NCBI GenBank assembly: GCA_963971535.1
Contig: OZ020588.1
Location: 125,836,561-125,900,560, forward strand
Length of the DNA: 64,000 bases
DNA from: Notolepis coatsorum
Taxonomy: Eukaryota > Chordata > Actinopteri > Aulopiformes > Paralepididae
Direction: 5' to 3'
How positions within the stretch are numbered: the first letter of the stretch is position 1; each line of letters starts with the position of its first letter. Position numbers and translations under genes: made by a program. Positions 2,513 through 58,886 of the stretch are shown here, piece after piece. The notes beneath the pieces were generated by a model. That model did no database searches. It saw nothing but the letters and a program-made list of their open reading frames with translations, and was not told the DNA's origin.

Positions 2513-4868
2513 AACAGAACTGGAATATATAACCATCAAGTGTCGTCCTTTCTTCCTCCCGAGGGAGTTAACGGCGATCGTCCTGGTCGGAGTGTATATT
2601 CCACCGCAAGCCAACAACAACGCCGCGCTCTCCAGACTCCACGACGAGGTAAATAGTATACAAGCGACGAACGTTAACGCCGCCATTTTAGTACTGGGAG
2701 ATTTCAATAGCGCCAATCTGAGAAAGGTATTGCCTGATTTCTACCAGCATGTGACTTGCAACACCAGAGGCGGTAACATCCTAGATCACTGTTACACGCA
2801 ATTTAAAGGTGGCTACAAGGCTCATTCTGATAGTGGCTTTGGCAAGTCAGATCACGCATCCATTTTCCTTACACCAAAGTACAGACAAAGAATTAAAAGT
2901 ACTCCCGTAGTCTCGCGAGAGGTGCAGAAATGGGATGTGACGTCAGAGGATACGATCCGGTCAGTGTTTCACAACACAGACTGGATTGTATTCCGCGACA
3001 CAGATAACATTAATGCCTACACGGAGACAGTGCTGGACTATGTCTGTACTAGGGTGAAAGAAACAATCCCCACTACCAAAATGAAAGTTTACCCAAATCA
3101 AAAACCCTGGGTAGACAAATCCGTCCGTGAAGCTCTGAGAGAGCGCACCAAAGCATACAATGACGGCCTAGTGGCAGGCAACATGAATGACCACAAGGTG
3201 GCGCAACACAACGTAAGGAGGACAGTGTCAGAGGCCAAACGGCGCTACAGGGATAAAATTGAACTTCAGTTTGAACAAGCTGACTCTAGAGCTATGTGGC
3301 AGGGGCTCAAAACGATGACAGACTACAAAGGCGCCTCCCTCAAACTGAACAGTGACATCTCCTTAGCAAACGACCTCAATACCTTCTATGCGAGGTTTGA
3401 TGCTGGTAATAACAACACCAGCTCACAAGCCTCGGCAATGGGGGGGGGGGGGTCGGCTGCTGATGGAGGCGCAGTGTTCAGGGTAACAGAGCATGAGGTG
3501 AGGCGGACCTTTAAAAAAGTGAATATCAGGAAGGCAGCAGGTCCGGACGGCATCCCCGGCCGCGTCCTAAAAGTCTGTGCCGACCAACTGGCCCCAGTAT
3601 TCACTGACATATTTAACCTGTCCTTAGAACAGGCTGTCATCCCCACCTGCCTGAAGAAGTCCACTATTATCCCTGTACCCAAAAAATCCAAGCCTGCTTG
3701 CCTCAACGACTACCGCCCTGTAGCTCTCACCTCCATAGCCATGAAGTGCTTTGAGAAGCTAGTAAAGGGCTACATCTGCTCCTCCCTCCCCATCAACATG
3801 GACCCCCTGCAATTTGCATACCGCCCCAACAGGTCCACGGAGGACGCCATATCCCATGTGCTGCACACAGCAGCATCACACCTGGACAAGAGGCAGGGGA
3901 ACTATGTGAGAATGCTATTCATCGACTACAGCTCGGCATTCAATACCATAGTCCCCTCCATACTCATAGCCAAGCTCAGGGACCTGGGCTTGGGCTATGA
4001 CCTCTGCCAGTGGGTCTTGGACTTCCTGACTGGCAGACCCCAGGTGGTGAGAGCAGGCAACTGCACCTCCTCATCCATCACCCTCAACATAGGGGCCCCC
4101 CAGGGCTGTGTTCTGAGTCCCCTCCTCTACTCCCTGTACACACACGACTGTGTGGCTCAGCGGAGTAGCAATACAATCGTCAAATTTGCTGACGACACAG
4201 TGGTGGTGGGCCTGATCTCTGCCAACGACGAGAGGGCCTACCTGGAAGAGGTCAAGGTCCTGGCGGGATGGTGCCAGGAAAACAGCCTCTCCCTGAACGT
4301 CAGCAAAACAAAGGAGATGATTGTGGACTTCAGGAGGTCGGGGGTCAAGGACTACAGCCCCCTCAGCATCGACGGGGCACCGGTTGAGAGAGTCAACAGC
4401 TTCAAGTACCTCGGAGCCCACATATCCGAGGACTTGACATGGACCATACACATTAACAGTGTGGTGAAGAAGGCACGACAACGCCTCTACTTCCTCAGGC
4501 GCCTAAGGAAGTTCCAAGTCAGCCAGAAGATCCTTAAGAACTTCTACTCATGTACAATAGAGAGCATCTTGACCGGCAACATCACCTCCTGGTTTGGGAA
4601 TAGCACTGCAAAAGACCAAAGCAGACTACAAAGAGTGACACGTTCAGCCGAACGCACAATTGGAGGGGGGCTCCCCACCCTCCAGAACATTTACTACAAG
4701 CGTTGCAAGGGGAAGGCTAAGAGAATTATTAAGGACTCGAGCCACCCGAACAACTGCCTCTTTGAACTGCTGCCGTCAGGCAAGCGATACAGGAGTCTCA
4801 AGGCGAGCACAGAAAGACTCAGAAGTAGCTTCTATCCCCAGGCCATCAGGCTGCTAAACGAACAATGA
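2513..4868 (+). CDS. L2/CR1-group LINE ORF2: endonuclease C-terminus plus reverse transcriptase, 5'-truncated
   Basis: Apurinic-like endonuclease/reverse transcriptase of an L2-type LINE. The open frame enters at about 2513 without a start codon (the first in-frame GTG is 2592), so the element is 5'-truncated inside the endonuclease. Remaining endonuclease motifs are LVLGDFN and GKSDHASIFL. The RT follows with AAGPDGIPGRVLK, DYRPVALTS, LFIDYSSAFNT (first catalytic Asp), GAPQGCVLSPLL and the catalytic VKFADD at 4185-4196. A C-terminal thumb/tail with SFKYLGAHI and a Cys-poor end (LLPSGKRYRSL) completes it. No stop or frameshift occurs over about 785 codons; a G-run at 3440-3451 is tolerated as a Gly stretch. 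RT residues look intact, but the copy lacks its promoter and the endonuclease N-terminus, so it is probably a dead-on-arrival yet recent insertion. Confidence 0.85.
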
Positions 4869-7644: not shown

Positions 7645-7650
<6 letters not shown>

Positions 7651-48796: not shown

Positions 48797-49267
48797 GTGG
48801 AAATGATACCCAATGCACTATCAGATCACTGTTATTTACTCCTAAAAGGAACATTTGGTATACTATCTTCCCGAGCCCCAAGATGGCGATTTAACTCGAT
48901 GCTGCTTAATAACAAGGAATTCATTACACAACTCAAAGAAGCTCTTATAGTATTCCTACGGGAGAATGCAAACTCGGTGCAAGATCCCAGAATAATATGG
49001 ATGTCGGTAAAGGGAATGATCAAGGATTTCACTGATAGCTTTTCCTCCAAAATGCGCAAGAATCGATGCACAAAACTGGCTGAACTGGAAACGCTTTACT
49101 CAACGTTATTTAATTCTTTACAATACAACAACTCAACTCGACTAGAAAATCAAGTTAAGGTACTAAAAAAAGAGATCAATGCCATATACAGACAACAATC
49201 GGAAATAAAATATGTAGCACAAGACAACAGCAGTACTACCAAGGTTCTAAACCTAGTCACCTATTAG
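48797..49267 (+). pseudogene. L1 (copy D) ORF2 linker, frameshifted
   Basis: Encodes the endonuclease end (MIPNALSDHCYLLL) and the linker (APRWRFNSMLLNN, IYRQQSEIKYVAQD). Compared with copy C one base is missing near 49207, which sends the frame to a stop at 49267. The true frame resumes at 49270. Confidence 0.8.
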
Positions 49268-49269
49268 CC

Positions 49270-51906
49270 ATGCGATTAAGATTTAATGCAAAATTTGCAG
49301 ATATAACTACCATTAGAGCACAACAAGTACTTGAAACAGACCCGGAAAAAATAAACGTGACATTCAAAGAATTCTACTCCAACTTATATAAATCAGAAAC
49401 AACCTTCGATCAAAACAAAATGGACACATATCTTAATCAAATTATTCTCCCTAAACTTTCAGAGGATGACGCTAAACAGTTAGAAACACCGATCACACAA
49501 GAGGAACTCAAGAAGGCCATATCCGAAATGCAAAGTGGTAAGGCTCCTGGAAGAGACGGTATCCCACCAGAAATGTACCTCTCTTGTGGGGACATAATTG
49601 GACCCTTATTACTAAATATGATCTTATACTCAGTCAAGGAGGGGAACTTCCATAAGAATGACAATATTGCACTCATAACAGTCCTTCTCAAAAAAGACAA
49701 AGACCCCACCGAGTGCGGTAGTTACAGACCCTTAAGCCTCCTCGGAACCGATATCAAACTGTACTCTAAGGTATTAGCCATCAGATTACAAAAGCATATG
49801 ACGTCTTTAGTTCATCCGGACCAAACTGGCTTCATAAGAGGCCGCCTGATCACTGATAACATAAGACGAATACTGCACGTACTAGATGCTGACAAGGACG
49901 ACACCATACCTAAGGCGATGCTGTCCCTGGATGCAATGAAAGCTTTTGACAGGCTGGAATGGTCGTATCTATGGGCAATATTAGAGAAGATGGGGTTAGG
50001 TAAAGGTTTCATTGATATGATTAAAGTAGTATACAAAGACCCATCGGCCATGATTACAACAGGTATAATCACCTCCGGAATATTTCCGGTATCACGCTCA
50101 GCTAGACAGGGTTGCCCTCTTAGTCCTGGACTATTCGATCTATCATTAGAACCTTTAGCACAATATATAAGACAATCCCAATCCATAGAACCAATCGTAA
50201 TCAAGGGCACACAACATAAAATTAGTTTATATGCGGACGACGTAATACTGTTTATGCAAAACCCCAACACCACACTGCCTCATCTGCTCAAGTTGATTGA
50301 GAACGTTGGAGATTTATCGGGATTCAAGATAAATTGGCCGAAGTCGGCTTTCCTTCCACTTAACGCCCCTGCAAAAAAAGATATAACCCTCCCAGGAGAG
50401 ATACCTATGGTAAAACATTTTAGATGTTTGGGAGTGGAAATATTCCCCACCATAAGACAAACGGTGAAGCACAATTACACAAAAATCCAAAACAAAATCA
50501 AAGACGACCTTGATAGGTGGGCAAAACTTAAAAACTCAGTACAGGCACGGATATCAATAGTTAAGATGGACGTACTACCTAGAATCAACTTCTTTAGCTC
50601 AATGCTACCGTTACCCCCTCCAGAGGGTTACTGGAAAAGATTACACTCCTCCACATACAAATTTATTTGGAATAACAAACCACCATGTATAAAAAGATCC
50701 ACCGAACAGAGAAATAAAGCAGACGGTGGCATGGCATTTCCAGATTGTTTCCACTATTTTAAGGCGTACACATTAAGACCATTGACAACATGGTTTGATC
50801 CCCAAGCATTAGTATCCTGGAGAAAATTAGAAGAAAACATGGTAGCCCCACATAGACTGAAGGACATAGCATACACTAAACTACCAATCAAGCATTGCGA
50901 ACGGAAATTTGGCCCCATAATTACTCATGCGATCCGGATATGGCGTGAAACACAAAAGAAATATCCTAACCCACATAAATGGCACAATCATACTCCCTTA
51001 TTCAATAACAATGCACTCTTGATTGGAAAACAACCTATAAGATTCCCTATATGGGAAAAGCAAGGCATACACTCATTAGGGCATGTTTTTAACAAACAGG
51101 GTTTCTGTAGTTATGAAGAAATACAGAAGAAATTTAATCTCACCAAGTCCACACATCTTTTTTACTTACAGTTATTGTTATGTTTGAAGACTCAAGGTGT
51201 TCCATTAACGAAACCAATTGAACACCACAGATACCACAAATTCTTCTATGAAAGAGAAACATCGAGAGGTTTTGTATCAGGTTTTTATTATCAATTACTA
51301 ACGTCCTCGTATGAAACCCTCCAACTAGACTCTGTCTGGAGGAGGGATATACCAGACCTGGAAAGTGACTTTGATTGGCAAGAAGCATGGGCAAATGTCC
51401 GTCTTACATCAAGGAACCCGGACCATCAACAAATCAATCTTAACTATATTCACAGGACATACTTGACTCCTATAAGACTGAACAGAATGGGCCTTAAACA
51501 AGACTCAAAATGCTTCCAATGTACAAATGGAGACGAAGGGACATTTATGCACATGTATTGGGACTGCCCACCAGTTAAGGCATTCTGGAAAGATGTGACC
51601 CATCAATTATCAAAACTCGTATCTTGGAATATACCAGTACACCCCTCTCTATTACTATTGAATGATGTTTTTGAGTTTGCAGTAAATCCACAGCTAAAGA
51701 GATTGGTTTTATCGGGTATCACAGTAGCTAAAAAACTGATCGCATCACGCTGGTTTCAACCGGAAAAAATGTGCCGGAAGGTTTGGTTTCTTACATATCT
51801 CGATGTGATTTATCAAGAAATATCTACAGCAAGAATTCTGGGTCTCAACGAATCCAAAATGTCAATGTGGTTAGAAGTGGTGGAGAGAATAAAAGCTAGC
51901 TTATAA
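49270..51906 (+). CDS. L1 (copy D) ORF2 reverse transcriptase and C-terminal region, 878 codons open
   Basis: Reverse transcriptase of an L1/Tx1-like LINE. Motifs in order: SGKAPGRDGIPPEMY (about 95-110), SYRPLSLLGTDIKLYSKVLA, QTGFIRGRLITDN, LSLDAMKAFDRLEW (first Asp), RQGCPLSPGLFDLSLEPLA and the catalytic YADD at 50230-50241 (residue 321). GFKINWPKSAFLP and KHFRCLGVEIFP follow. A C-terminal Cys/His motif (CFQCTNGDEGTFMHMYWDC) matches the L1 ORF2 tail. All catalytic residues are present, but the endonuclease is lost and the upstream frame is shifted, so the copy cannot move on its own. The ATG at 49270 is internal to the ancestral ORF2. Confidence 0.9.
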   Translation: MRLRFNAKFADITTIRAQQVLETDPEKINVTFKEFYSNLYKSETTFDQNKMDTYLNQIILPKLSEDDAKQLETPITQEELKKAISEMQSGKAPGRDGIPPEMYLSCGDIIGPLLLNMILYSVKEGNFHKNDNIALITVLLKKDKDPTECGSYRPLSLLGTDIKLYSKVLAIRLQKHMTSLVHPDQTGFIRGRLITDNIRRILHVLDADKDDTIPKAMLSLDAMKAFDRLEWSYLWAILEKMGLGKGFIDMIKVVYKDPSAMITTGIITSGIFPVSRSARQGCPLSPGLFDLSLEPLAQYIRQSQSIEPIVIKGTQHKISLYADDVILFMQNPNTTLPHLLKLIENVGDLSGFKINWPKSAFLPLNAPAKKDITLPGEIPMVKHFRCLGVEIFPTIRQTVKHNYTKIQNKIKDDLDRWAKLKNSVQARISIVKMDVLPRINFFSSMLPLPPPEGYWKRLHSSTYKFIWNNKPPCIKRSTEQRNKADGGMAFPDCFHYFKAYTLRPLTTWFDPQALVSWRKLEENMVAPHRLKDIAYTKLPIKHCERKFGPIITHAIRIWRETQKKYPNPHKWHNHTPLFNNNALLIGKQPIRFPIWEKQGIHSLGHVFNKQGFCSYEEIQKKFNLTKSTHLFYLQLLLCLKTQGVPLTKPIEHHRYHKFFYERETSRGFVSGFYYQLLTSSYETLQLDSVWRRDIPDLESDFDWQEAWANVRLTSRNPDHQQINLNYIHRTYLTPIRLNRMGLKQDSKCFQCTNGDEGTFMHMYWDCPPVKAFWKDVTHQLSKLVSWNIPVHPSLLLLNDVFEFAVNPQLKRLVLSGITVAKKLIASRWFQPEKMCRKVWFLTYLDVIYQEISTARILGLNESKMSMWLEVVERIKASL

Positions 51907-54545: not shown

Positions 54546-55469
54546 GAACTCAATAGCCCGCTGTGGCATTGCAGGTAGCTTTTCCCCGCTTGTGTTTCTA
54601 ATCAAATATTGATATCGCCGCAGGGAGGGGGGGGGGGCATAATCCCATGGGACAATGGGATTGACCGATATGTTTACCAATATTCCAATGTACAGTTTTT
54701 CTGTACCATTGACTCAGAATGGTCTGTTTTATTGAAATCGTCACAGCAGTATAGTTTGTTTATACTGTGTGTGTGTGTGTGTGTGTGTACTGGAATGAGT
54801 GCATGTGGGATTGATGTGGTGATACTTCTTGACTTGTAGCCTATTGTGTCTTGGCAGTAAAGCTGTGAGTACAGTGGTGAGTCCAGGTTGGACATTTACC
54901 ATGCATTTTATAAGCTCTTTTTGCATGCAATTGCAAAGAAATTGCATGTAGATGTGTTTGAAACAGTGAGGATGAGAAATGGTCTGATCTTGCTGTAAAC
55001 AAATAGTTTTTGATTTGCCTTCTTGATAGGGATGTCCGATATTATCGGCCGACCGATATTATCGGCCGATATCGGCAGTAAAATGTGATATCGGAAAATA
55101 TCGGTATCGGTTAAAAAAAAAAAAAAAACAATAACAATATTTTTTTTTTTTTTTTTTTACAAAATTTGAATCATAGCCACGTTAATAATGCTTGTAATAA
55201 ACCAAACCGTTTGTAAATCCATCAATATTTCAGCGAGTTATGAGTATTTTTGTCTGTGCAGCTCACTCACCCTCACTCAAGGCTGACTGGAGCAAGATGG
55301 CGGCGGTTCAGCGACGCTGGTGACTCCTATCTAGTGTTCTATATATATCTATGGATGAGCCGACCCAGACGTCTATCGGTGCGTGCTTGATGACATCATC
55401 AAACCGCGTCGTCACTTGCAGCATACATGTAACAACAAGTCCGCGAGTGGAGCCCGAACAGCTAACGTT

Positions 55470-57487
55470 ATGTCTCTGATTTGGAATTATTTCAAAGTGT
55501 CTCCAGATAAGAAAGTTGCCATTTGCAATGACTGTAAAACGGAGGTTATGCGAGGAGGAACCAAGATATCTTCCTTCAATACAATGAATTTAATCTCCCA
55601 CCTTAAGAAGAATCACCCGGAGATATATGCAGCATTTGTGAAAGCAAACGAAGAAAAGAAGATAAGTGAGACACCGAAAAAAGTTAAACCCACGATGCAG
55701 TTGTCTCTTAACGAGTCGGTCTATAAAAAACTAAAATACAGCAAGGACCACCCCAGGACGAAAGCCATCAATCAGAAAATCATCGAGTGTATCGCACTGG
55801 ATAACCAGCCGTTTTCGATCGTGCAAGACACCGGATTCACCAAACTTGTGGAGTATCTCGAGCCACGCTTTGCCATGCCCAGTCGCAAGTATTTCACAGA
55901 TATCTGCTTGCCCGAGTTGTACAATAGTGTGTACAGTCACATCGAGAAGCTAATTTCAAATGCTGTGTCCATTAGCTTCACAACAGATATCTGGTCTTCA
56001 AGCGTTAGCTCGATTAGCATGTTGAGCTTGACTGCACAATGGCTGGATGCGGACTTTGTGCTGAAAAAGGCTGTGCTTAATACCCAAGAGTGGCGTGGGT
56101 CTCATACAGCAGTAGCGATCTCAGCTGCTTTTGAAGGGATGTTTGAGGCGTGGAAAATCCCCAAGTCACAAGTTGTGGTGAGGGATAACGCACGTAACAT
56201 GGCTAAAGCTACGACGGAGTTTGGTGTGAAAAGTCTGCCCTGCATGGCGCACAGCTTGCAGCTGGCAGTGAACGGAGGTGCCCTGTCTCAACGCAGCATC
56301 GCAGAGGCTCTGGCTGTGGGGAGGAAAGTGGTAGGACACTTCAAGCACTCACCGCTAGCTTACAGTCGTTTGGAAGACATACAGAAGGAACTCAACGTGC
56401 CTGTTAAAAGGCTTCAACAGGATGTTGCCACCAGGTGGAATTCCTCCTTCTATATGATGCAGAGTCTGGTGGAGCAGAAGAGGGCTTTAAGTGCATATGT
56501 TGCTGATTATGAACTCCCTGCAACATTAACAGCAACTCAATGGGGTATTCTGGAGAAGATGATCACCCTACTGGAACCCTTTGAACAGCTGACCAGGGAC
56601 ATCAGCTCTGCCGAGGCTACTGCTGCAGATGTCATCCCTGGTGTGGTGTCTCTGACACGGCTGCTTACCAAGAGTGATGAAGCACAGGACAAAGGTGTGA
56701 GAACAGCCAAACGTACTCTACTAGAAGCTGTCAGTGACCGCTTCCATTGTGTGCAAGGAGAACCTCTTTATGCCATTGCAACCATGGTTGATGCTCGTTA
56801 CAAAGATCGTTATTTTGACAACGACAAGAAGGAGGAAGCACGCAATATGCTTCTGAAAGTTGTGGAAAGAATGGCCAGTGGCAGTGATGATCAGCAAAGA
56901 GAGGCTGCAGATGGTCAGGAAGACCAGGACCCCCCACCTAAGAAGACCCGAACTGGAAGCCCGAAACTGAAGGACATGTACCAAGAAATCCTGGAGGAGA
57001 ATGAACTCAGCGAACAAGCAGCTACAGGGGAGATGGCATCACAGGTGAATAATACATTTTATTAGCAAACTAATTGAATTGAATTGCAGAGTGCTTCACA
57101 TGAAAATGCATATACAATTAATAAAATAAAGATTGGATTTTGAAGAAAAGTAAATAGAATTAATTTAATTTAATGTTTGTTTTGTACATTTGTCTTTTTT
57201 TTCTTTTTCTTTAGGTGCATGCATACCTGGGGGAAGTCACCATCTTCAAGACGGAGTGCCCTTTCAACTACTGGAGGTCCAACAAGGCCCGCTTCCCTGC
57301 TATTGCCCATGTAGCACGCAAGTACCTCACTGCACCCTGCACCAGTGTCGACAGCGAACGGCTCTTCAGTGCTGTCGCCCATGTCATAGATGAGAAGCGG
57401 AATCGAATACATTGCAATAATGCTGAGATGCTGATTTTCATCCAGAAGAATCTACCTCTCACTCACAAGGACATGGAGAAAAAATAG
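55470..57487 (+). CDS. hAT transposase, BED-finger type, two exons (55470-57044, 57215-57487)
   Basis: Cut-and-paste transposase of about 615 aa acting on the element's own ends in the nucleus. The ATG at 55470 starts directly before the BED domain; the upstream GTG at 55383 is an open-frame extension. The BED zinc finger has C19-x2-C22 and H44-x4-H49 with aromatic W5 and F8. The RNase H-like catalytic domain has FTTDIWSS (D173) and VVVRDNARNM (D239), then CMAHSLQLAV (C258-x2-H261). Exon 1 ends GCATCACAG|gtgaat at 57044. The 170-bp intron ends tttctttag at 57214, phase 0. Exon 2 supplies the hAT C-terminal dimerisation motif (NYWRSNKARFPAIAHVARKYL, SVDSERLFSAVAHVIDEKRNR) to TAG at 57485. No stops or frameshifts. 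It resembles ZBED1/Tramp-like hAT proteins. Confidence 0.9.
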
Positions 57488-58100
57488 GACAGGGTCACTG
57501 TCATATAGTCCTGTCAGCATCAGTCTTTCTTTCACTTTAATTTGTTGTACTTTAAAAAAGAGGACTGGACTCTGGACTAATACCGTTTCTTCTGTGACAT
57601 TTTTGTTTTCATTTGCACATTTGGTTACTTGAAAGAGCAGGGCTGTTTGAGCCCAGGTTGTTATTTTAGTATATTATTTTGTTTTATTAGCTAAATGATG
57701 GCCACTGGCCAGTTACATGTAGAGCTCATCTAAAGCAGGGCTTGAGCCCAGTTTATTTGAAAGATTGTGTGCTGATTTTCATCCAGAAGAATCTACCTCT
57801 CACTCACAAGGACATGGAGAAAAAATAGGACAGGGTCACTGTTATATAGTCCAGTCAGCATCAGTCTTTCTTTCACTTTAATTTGTTGTACTTTAAAAAG
57901 AGGACTGGACTAATACCGTTTCTTCTGTGACATTTTTGTTTTCATTTGCACATTTGGTTACTTGAAAGAGCAGGGCTGTTTGAGCCCAGGTTGTTATTTT
58001 AGTATATTATAGTGTTTTATTAGCCAAATGATGGCCACTGGCCAGTTACATGTAGAGCTCATCTAGACTCAGGGCTTGAGCCCAGTTTATTTGAAGGATT
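57428..58100 (+). repeat. Direct repeat of transposase 3' end
   Basis: 'tgattttcatccagaagaat' to about 57757 is repeated from 57768. The second copy includes a duplicate of the last 19 codons and stop but lies beyond the real stop, so it is untranslated. Few differences (e.g. tcatatag/ttatatag), so it arose recently. Confidence 0.9.
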
Positions 58101-58886
58101 GTGTTACCCCAAGTAGGCTAATGAGTGGGGCTGCTTAAAATAACTTAGCTTATCGTCTTCTGTTGGCGTGTTCCTTTTAAATGTGGGCTGGTCCAGCACT
58201 GCTGGAGTATTATTTGTATGTTTCAGTTATTTGCACTTTACCTCAGTTGTATAGGTACAATTGTGTTTACATTTTGTGAAGAAGTAGATATTTGTCAGGA
58301 TTATCTCAGGGAGAGTGTAATCCAAGCTGCTGTTGTTGACAAAATAAATATGGCACTTTTTTCCATTAAATCTAAGTATTTGTCATATTTTGCACAGATA
58401 ATGCTTACCTTTAGAAAGCCTTTTGAATGCATCCAGTGAAATTATTAGTTACCTGAAATTATTATGTTTTTTTGGGGGGGAAACCCTGCATATATCGGTA
58501 TCAGTTGATATCGGTATCGGTATCGGAAATTGGAGTTGGACAATATCGGAATATCGGTATCGGTAAAAAAGCCAATATCGAGCATCCCTACTTCTTGACT
58601 AAGCTATTGTTGTGATGTGTGTAAGTGAGGTGTGTGTCAAGAGTTAATCAAAGGTATAAATTACTACTAGTGACTGCCTGTTGTCTTTAACTGTAGTGTC
58701 TGTCTGCTGTCTTCATAACCACACTGTGTCTGTACTTCTTTATTAAATTTTTTTATCTCCCGTCCTCCCCAATTTTTTAACTCACCAGCCACTACTGACA
58801 CACACATTGGGGGATGTTTTATAAATATAATATAATAATTTGTGCTTCACCAAAAAATTTGGTCAGCAGCCTCCACTGATTTCTAT

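Follow-up and report, generated by a model that had tools for sequence, protein, structure and literature searches.

The hAT element and its ends

The window, by which we mean the whole 64-kb stretch of DNA that was analysed, contains a hAT element of 3,564 bp on the plus strand (55027-58590). It is flanked by an exact 8-bp direct repeat, the target-site duplication (TSD) CTTCTTGA, present at 55019-55026 on the left and at 58591-58598 on the right (both unstranded); the computed chance of such a TSD at a fixed place is about 1.8e-5. The element is bounded by terminal inverted repeats with arms of 17 bp, the left one (55027-55043, plus strand) starting with TAGGGATG and the right one (58574-58590, plus strand) ending with CATCCCTA, and an inverted-repeat search found the arms to be 88% complementary. 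Subterminal repeats of the motif TATCGG are present at both ends. Nine copies, on both strands, lie at 55036-55110, a group that includes two inverted pairs within a 17-bp tandem repeat, and seven lie on the plus strand at 58493-58563, with an eighth that reads TATCAG (58499-58504). Counted on either strand, the 64-kb window contains 28 TATCGG motifs, compared with a shuffle mean of 18.25; nine of the 28 fall within the 75 bp of the left group and seven within the 71 bp of the right group. The original prediction had proposed a complete hAT transposon at this position, and the exact TSD, the inverted ends and the TATCGG clusters were all confirmed. A chance resemblance to a transposon is ruled out by the TSD, the ends, the protein domains and the paralogues. 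An AATAAA on the plus strand at 58343-58348 is a candidate polyadenylation signal.

The transposase gene

The transposase is encoded on the plus strand in two exons. Exon 1 (55470-57044) codes for 525 amino acids with the BED finger, D173, D239 and the RW motif, and exon 2 (57215-57487 including the stop codon) codes for 90 amino acids with E573 and the hAT dimerisation domain. Between them lies an intron of 170 bp (57045-57214, plus strand) with GT-AG borders (GTGAAT...CTTTAG). Translation of the joined exons gives a protein of 615 amino acids with no internal stop, so that the predicted two-exon frame with a canonical intron was recovered. Both predicted domains score above their Pfam cut-offs: zf-BED (PF02892) in exon 1 with 34.2 bits (cut-off 20.6) and Dimer_Tnp_hAT, or hATC (PF05699), in exon 2 with 66.6 bits (cut-off 21.4). 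The residues C19, C22, H44 and H49 of the finger can be read from the sequence. The Pfam domain DBD_Tnp_Hermes stayed below its cut-off in the window transposase (16.8 bits, cut-off 20.5).

Aligned to the Hermes structures (57 bits, E 1e-14), the spliced protein places D173, D239 and E573 on Hermes D180, D248 and E572, and W323 on Hermes W319. Judged from these aligned residues, the protein would carry the D-D-E triad of an RNase H-like domain. Both aspartates mentioned in the original prediction were found in this way, and the loss of the catalytic glutamate, which had been named as a possible refutation, was not seen. A single-sequence AlphaFold model of exon 1 alone (pLDDT 39.1, pTM 0.24) was too poor for a fold assignment.

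The same genome contains a further hAT family whose frame is open (L035:1204-3018, plus strand). Its intronless frame encodes 605 amino acids with BED finger and hATC, and the protein matches Hermes with 89 bits. It shares 54% amino-acid identity with the window family over 613 aligned positions, as well as the three catalytic residues and both domains, but differs in being intronless. Two more places in the genome stand at the level of this relative (C1:198864043-198864774 and C1:101598802-101599533), with 65% nucleotide identity. The L035 protein aligns straight through the exon junction of the window gene, and this supports the predicted splice.

If the intron is retained, the frame stops at 57065 after 531 amino acids, upstream of E573. 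The P element produces a self-repressor by intron retention. In parallel, the intron of the window element could be a switch, the 531-residue protein retaining the BED finger and both aspartates, lacking E573 and hATC, and repressing transposition through the TATCGG motifs of the small elements described below; we regard this as a very unlikely role. Were it true, the intronless sister family would be without such a brake.

A scan for bacterial promoters and terminators returned eight promoter-like signals (6.4 expected) and eight terminator-like signals (3.3 expected), which are irrelevant for a gene of animal type, and a plasmid search gave zero matches and is uninformative.

Other copies of the element in the genome

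With exon 1 as query, 194 candidates were obtained, and among the 40 that were scored 10 long places showed 94-100% identity. Six elements are complete and have perfect TSDs: the window copy, L059, L060 (= L010), L012, L062 (= L013) and L064. These counts leave out L048/L069 (right end only, 93.5%), L067/L068 and L071. The transposase frame is unbroken in three of the six (the window copy, L059 and L060) and is disrupted by deletions, insertions or stops in L012, L062 and L064; the frames of the incomplete copies L063, L065, L067 and L070 are likewise broken. Outside the regions supported by BLAST the alignments of L063, L065 and L070 are unreliable, and these copies were excluded from the divergence figures.

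In exon 1, 10 of 1,575 aligned bases (0.63%) separate the window copy from L059 and likewise from L060, and in exon 2 one of 276 aligned bases does so; both L059 and L060 have open frames and perfect 8-bp TSDs of their own. Near-identical copies therefore exist, and the possibility raised in the original prediction that all genomic copies might be heavily diverged was refuted. Perfect 8-bp TSDs were found in 17 of the 18 elements examined, including the window element, the exception being L023 with one mismatch. Since flanks and TSDs differ between the copies, they are independent insertions and not duplicated segments. Because L059 and L060 are near-identical, open-framed and bordered by perfect TSDs, the family looks as if it has been mobile recently. 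The original prediction had also called such completeness rare, which was put too strongly: L059 and L060 are equally complete and lack the deletion described below, and the L035 family is a second open-framed hAT family in the genome.

Private damage in the window copy

The window copy carries a 6-bp in-frame deletion (site 56167-56168, unstranded) that removes two residues before D239, from the stretch SKVQVVVRD, the final D of which is the second catalytic residue. Both residues are kept in all eight other copies with a gap-free frame at this place (L059, L060, L012, L062, L063, L064, L065 and L070); L067 was excluded from this count on account of 14 gap letters in its segment. The L035 protein has the undeleted length as well, and Hermes can be aligned to L059 without a gap here, whereas its alignment to the window protein requires a gap of two residues.

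In addition, a comparison with five other copies shows six private substitutions in exon 1 of the window copy (L063 is gapped at two of these six columns). Five are non-synonymous, namely T39M, P181S, C208W, a K to R change at codon 411 and a T to M change at codon 522. At N48 of the BED finger the window copy departs from L059 and L060, yet this residue is not private among the copies compared. The zf-BED score is lower in the window copy (34.2 against 38.1 bits). In the right subterminal repeats, the window copy has a private A at 58503, where all 13 aligned others (ten small elements, L059, L060 and L062) have G. Of the private point changes, seven in all, four are CpG to TpG or CpA, a type of decay that would be expected of methylated, silent DNA. 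Between the window copy and L059 the pN/pS ratio is 0.74 (8 versus 3 changes, 11 in total), and between L059 and L060 it is 0.28 (4 versus 4 changes, 8 in total); the counts are small in both comparisons.

Taken at the level of sequence, the window copy is structurally complete and probably weakened. Its description as intact was correct in that the frame is open, but too generous in view of the private damage close to D239, and "possibly active" is a better description of the family than of the window copy, with its two-residue deletion, five private changes and mutated subterminal repeat. One could nevertheless argue that the window copy is itself a currently active autonomous element in which deletion and substitutions are tolerated: its ends are complete, its TSD exact and its two-exon frame open, D-D-E and hATC are present, and it has diverged little from L059 and L060. 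The damage by D239 and in the right-end repeat, shared with none of the copies compared, and a pN/pS near neutral (on small counts) make this unlikely. A shortened strand or loop at the deletion may be tolerated, which is a caveat to the reading of the changes as decay. We think that the window copy is now silent or weak and at best moved by the transposase of a better copy.

Small elements with the same ends

The right end of the window element, used as query, gave 1,103 candidates, and 30 of the 40 that were scored match only the last 207-214 bases, with 97-98% identity. All ten that were retrieved from these 30 proved to be elements of 380-459 bp with exact 8-bp TSDs, in which the left end of the autonomous element is joined by a foreign AT-rich middle to its right end, leaving no coding capacity. 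Over 85-133 bp (96-100%), nine of the ten cases matched by BLAST have the exact left end, and the right end is 97.6-98.1% identical. Short, noncoding, numerous, provided with the same ends and with TSDs of their own, these elements would, by their sequence features, constitute a MITE family of the window's hAT. The exact 26-nt left end occurs at 7,647 places in the genome (3,852 + 3,795), compared with none for the reversed control (0 + 0). Given that the autonomous copies number only about ten, almost every one of these places should represent a non-autonomous element.

In the 207-nt tail the ten retrieved elements have a mean pairwise distance of 0.28%, which is not an age estimate because the ten were among the top-ranked scores. 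Their tails have two diagnostic bases in common with the older copy L062 that are absent in the window copy, L059 and L060, which indicates an older or a sister lineage as their source; an older lineage of the family may have driven the small elements.

From these two bases, and from the open and intronless frame of L035, it could be argued that the small elements were mobilised by an L035-type hAT or by an older lineage and that the window family is a bystander. The small elements, however, bear the left end of the window family exactly (9/10) and its right end nearly so, while in the 3,732 bp covered at the L035 locus neither a TAGGGATG or CATCCCTA end nor other ends of the L035 element were found. 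We consider the bystander role improbable. Because the ends are shared, the small elements are linked to the window family, which probably provided the transposase for many of them.

Mosaic parts of the element

The 5' leader contains, on the minus strand at 55140-55354, one arm of MITE2, a small transposon unrelated to the hAT element; the arm was identified by repeat matches and is 93% alike to the MITE2 copies L007 and L008. When the left 374 bases of the element were used as query and 40 places were scored, five consisted of the hAT left end with the leader and 35 of the leader part alone. The MITE2 piece is also present in the leaders of L059, L060, L062, L064 and L012, and being common to these copies it was in the family before they spread. 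It might serve as promoter region of the hAT. The MITE2 elements themselves (L008:1501-1864 and L007:1207-1725) have long inverted ends (CATAGATATATATAGAACACTAGATAGC...) and 8-bp TSDs in both cases.

A tandem duplication of two units of about 333-342 bp (57429-58104, plus strand) covers the last part of exon 2 together with the 3' UTR; its second unit lies downstream of the stop codon and is untranslated. Two units are present in the window copy, L059 and L064 and one unit in L060, L061/L012, L062 and L063; perfect TSDs occur in copies of both states. The tandem duplication, the MITE2 piece, the 6-bp deletion and the swarm of small elements were absent from the original prediction.

Comparison with known hAT systems

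All hAT superfamily features examined were found in the window element, as far as they can be read from DNA and translation: the 8-bp TSD, short terminal inverted repeats, D-D-E, hATC and an N-terminal BED finger. The target consensus of hAT-Ac elements is nTnnnnAn. Among 17 TSDs, 12 have T at position 2, 12 have A at position 7, all 17 have either or both, and seven have both (1.4 expected); the TSD of the window element itself has T at position 2 and G at position 7. Membership in the hAT-Buster group (nnnTAnnn) was considered and rejected, since only two of the 17 TSDs fit (1.4 expected). Ac from maize, compared by its end alone, has the same TAGGGATG end. The window element is likely an autonomous-type hAT of the Ac kind, the branch being assigned from the target pattern and the TAGGGATG end.

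The terminal sequences of Tol2 probably differ from those of the window element. Compared by description, the fish elements Tol2 and Tgf2 resemble it as hATs of vertebrate type, both in the 8-bp TSD and in the length of the transposase, about 600-800 amino acids (available parts of PMC4890040). Activity has been demonstrated for Tol2 and Tgf2, whereas the window element is described from its sequence. Hermes from the house fly (PDB 6dww, 8edg, 2bw3, 4d1q) shares D-D-E, the RW motif, hATC, the BED finger and the 8-bp TSD with the window element, and also the subterminal repeats, which at the left end include an inverted pair, although the Hermes repeat motif is AAGT instead of TATCGG (as given in the accessible text of PMC10368747). 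The window element further differs in its one intron, in the DBD_Tnp_Hermes score below cut-off and in the low sequence similarity (E 1e-14). Two BED fingers of Hermes bind such an inverted repeat pair (same portion of PMC10368747), and by analogy the inverted TATCGG pairs of the window element would be used alike. The mar elements, hAT MITEs of Drosophila, are likewise small and non-autonomous; their TSDs are 8 bp long, and their interiors are rich in AT and in part of foreign origin (accessible text of PMC3517528). They are of Buster type (nnnTAnnn), a pattern that fits 2/17 TSDs here. A literature search on the end sequences and similar systems, with most subscription journals outside its scope, found no description of the window family and one unrelated match for the ends.

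Probable mobility of the family and decay of the window copy

From general hAT biology we would expect the BED finger to bind the TATCGG subterminal repeats, the transposase to oligomerise through hATC, the D-D-E site to excise the element and the excised element to insert at an 8-bp staggered target. We hold with good confidence that the window element is a structurally complete, autonomous-type hAT of the Ac kind, that its family was recently mobile and is the probable source of transposase for the 380-459-bp elements with the same ends, and that the window copy has drifted since it landed. This drift would comprise the deletion before D239 and the changes in and around conserved positions, mostly decay of the CpG type. 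That the gene could instead be a domesticated, ZBED-like host gene derived from a hAT and retained for host function, a known class (entry PMC3606216), is hardly credible: the open reading frame carries BED and hATC, but it still lies within intact ends and an exact TSD, it belongs to a multi-copy family in which each copy has separate flanks and its own TSD, and the protein changes of the window copy are close to a neutral ratio.

Few active hAT elements from vertebrates have been described, according to the available parts of PMC4890040. Having two or more open copies that are nearly identical, along with a swarm of small elements to match, the family could reasonably serve as a source for a natural transposon system, and it would lend itself to work on the way in which a few autonomous copies sustain thousands of passengers. 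The window element, with its few near-identical relatives and its short passengers, probably thousands of them, in a large genome, is a solid but ordinary find. It also calls for caution, since it appears complete by eye, yet is a damaged member of its family.

Further related elements were observed. L023-L034 and L036-L038 contain two inverted BED-finger coding pieces that are 76-84% like exon 1, and are fold-back elements from a related hAT. The elements L023:1004-2245 (1,242 bp) and L026 (minus strand, 1259-2093, 835 bp) have diverged ends (TAGAGATGTCC...) and 8-bp TSDs and possibly represent a sister subfamily. Elsewhere in the window, open frames of 784 and 915 amino acids (2514-4868 and 49159-51906) have translations that resemble, by eye, the polymerases of non-LTR retrotransposons.
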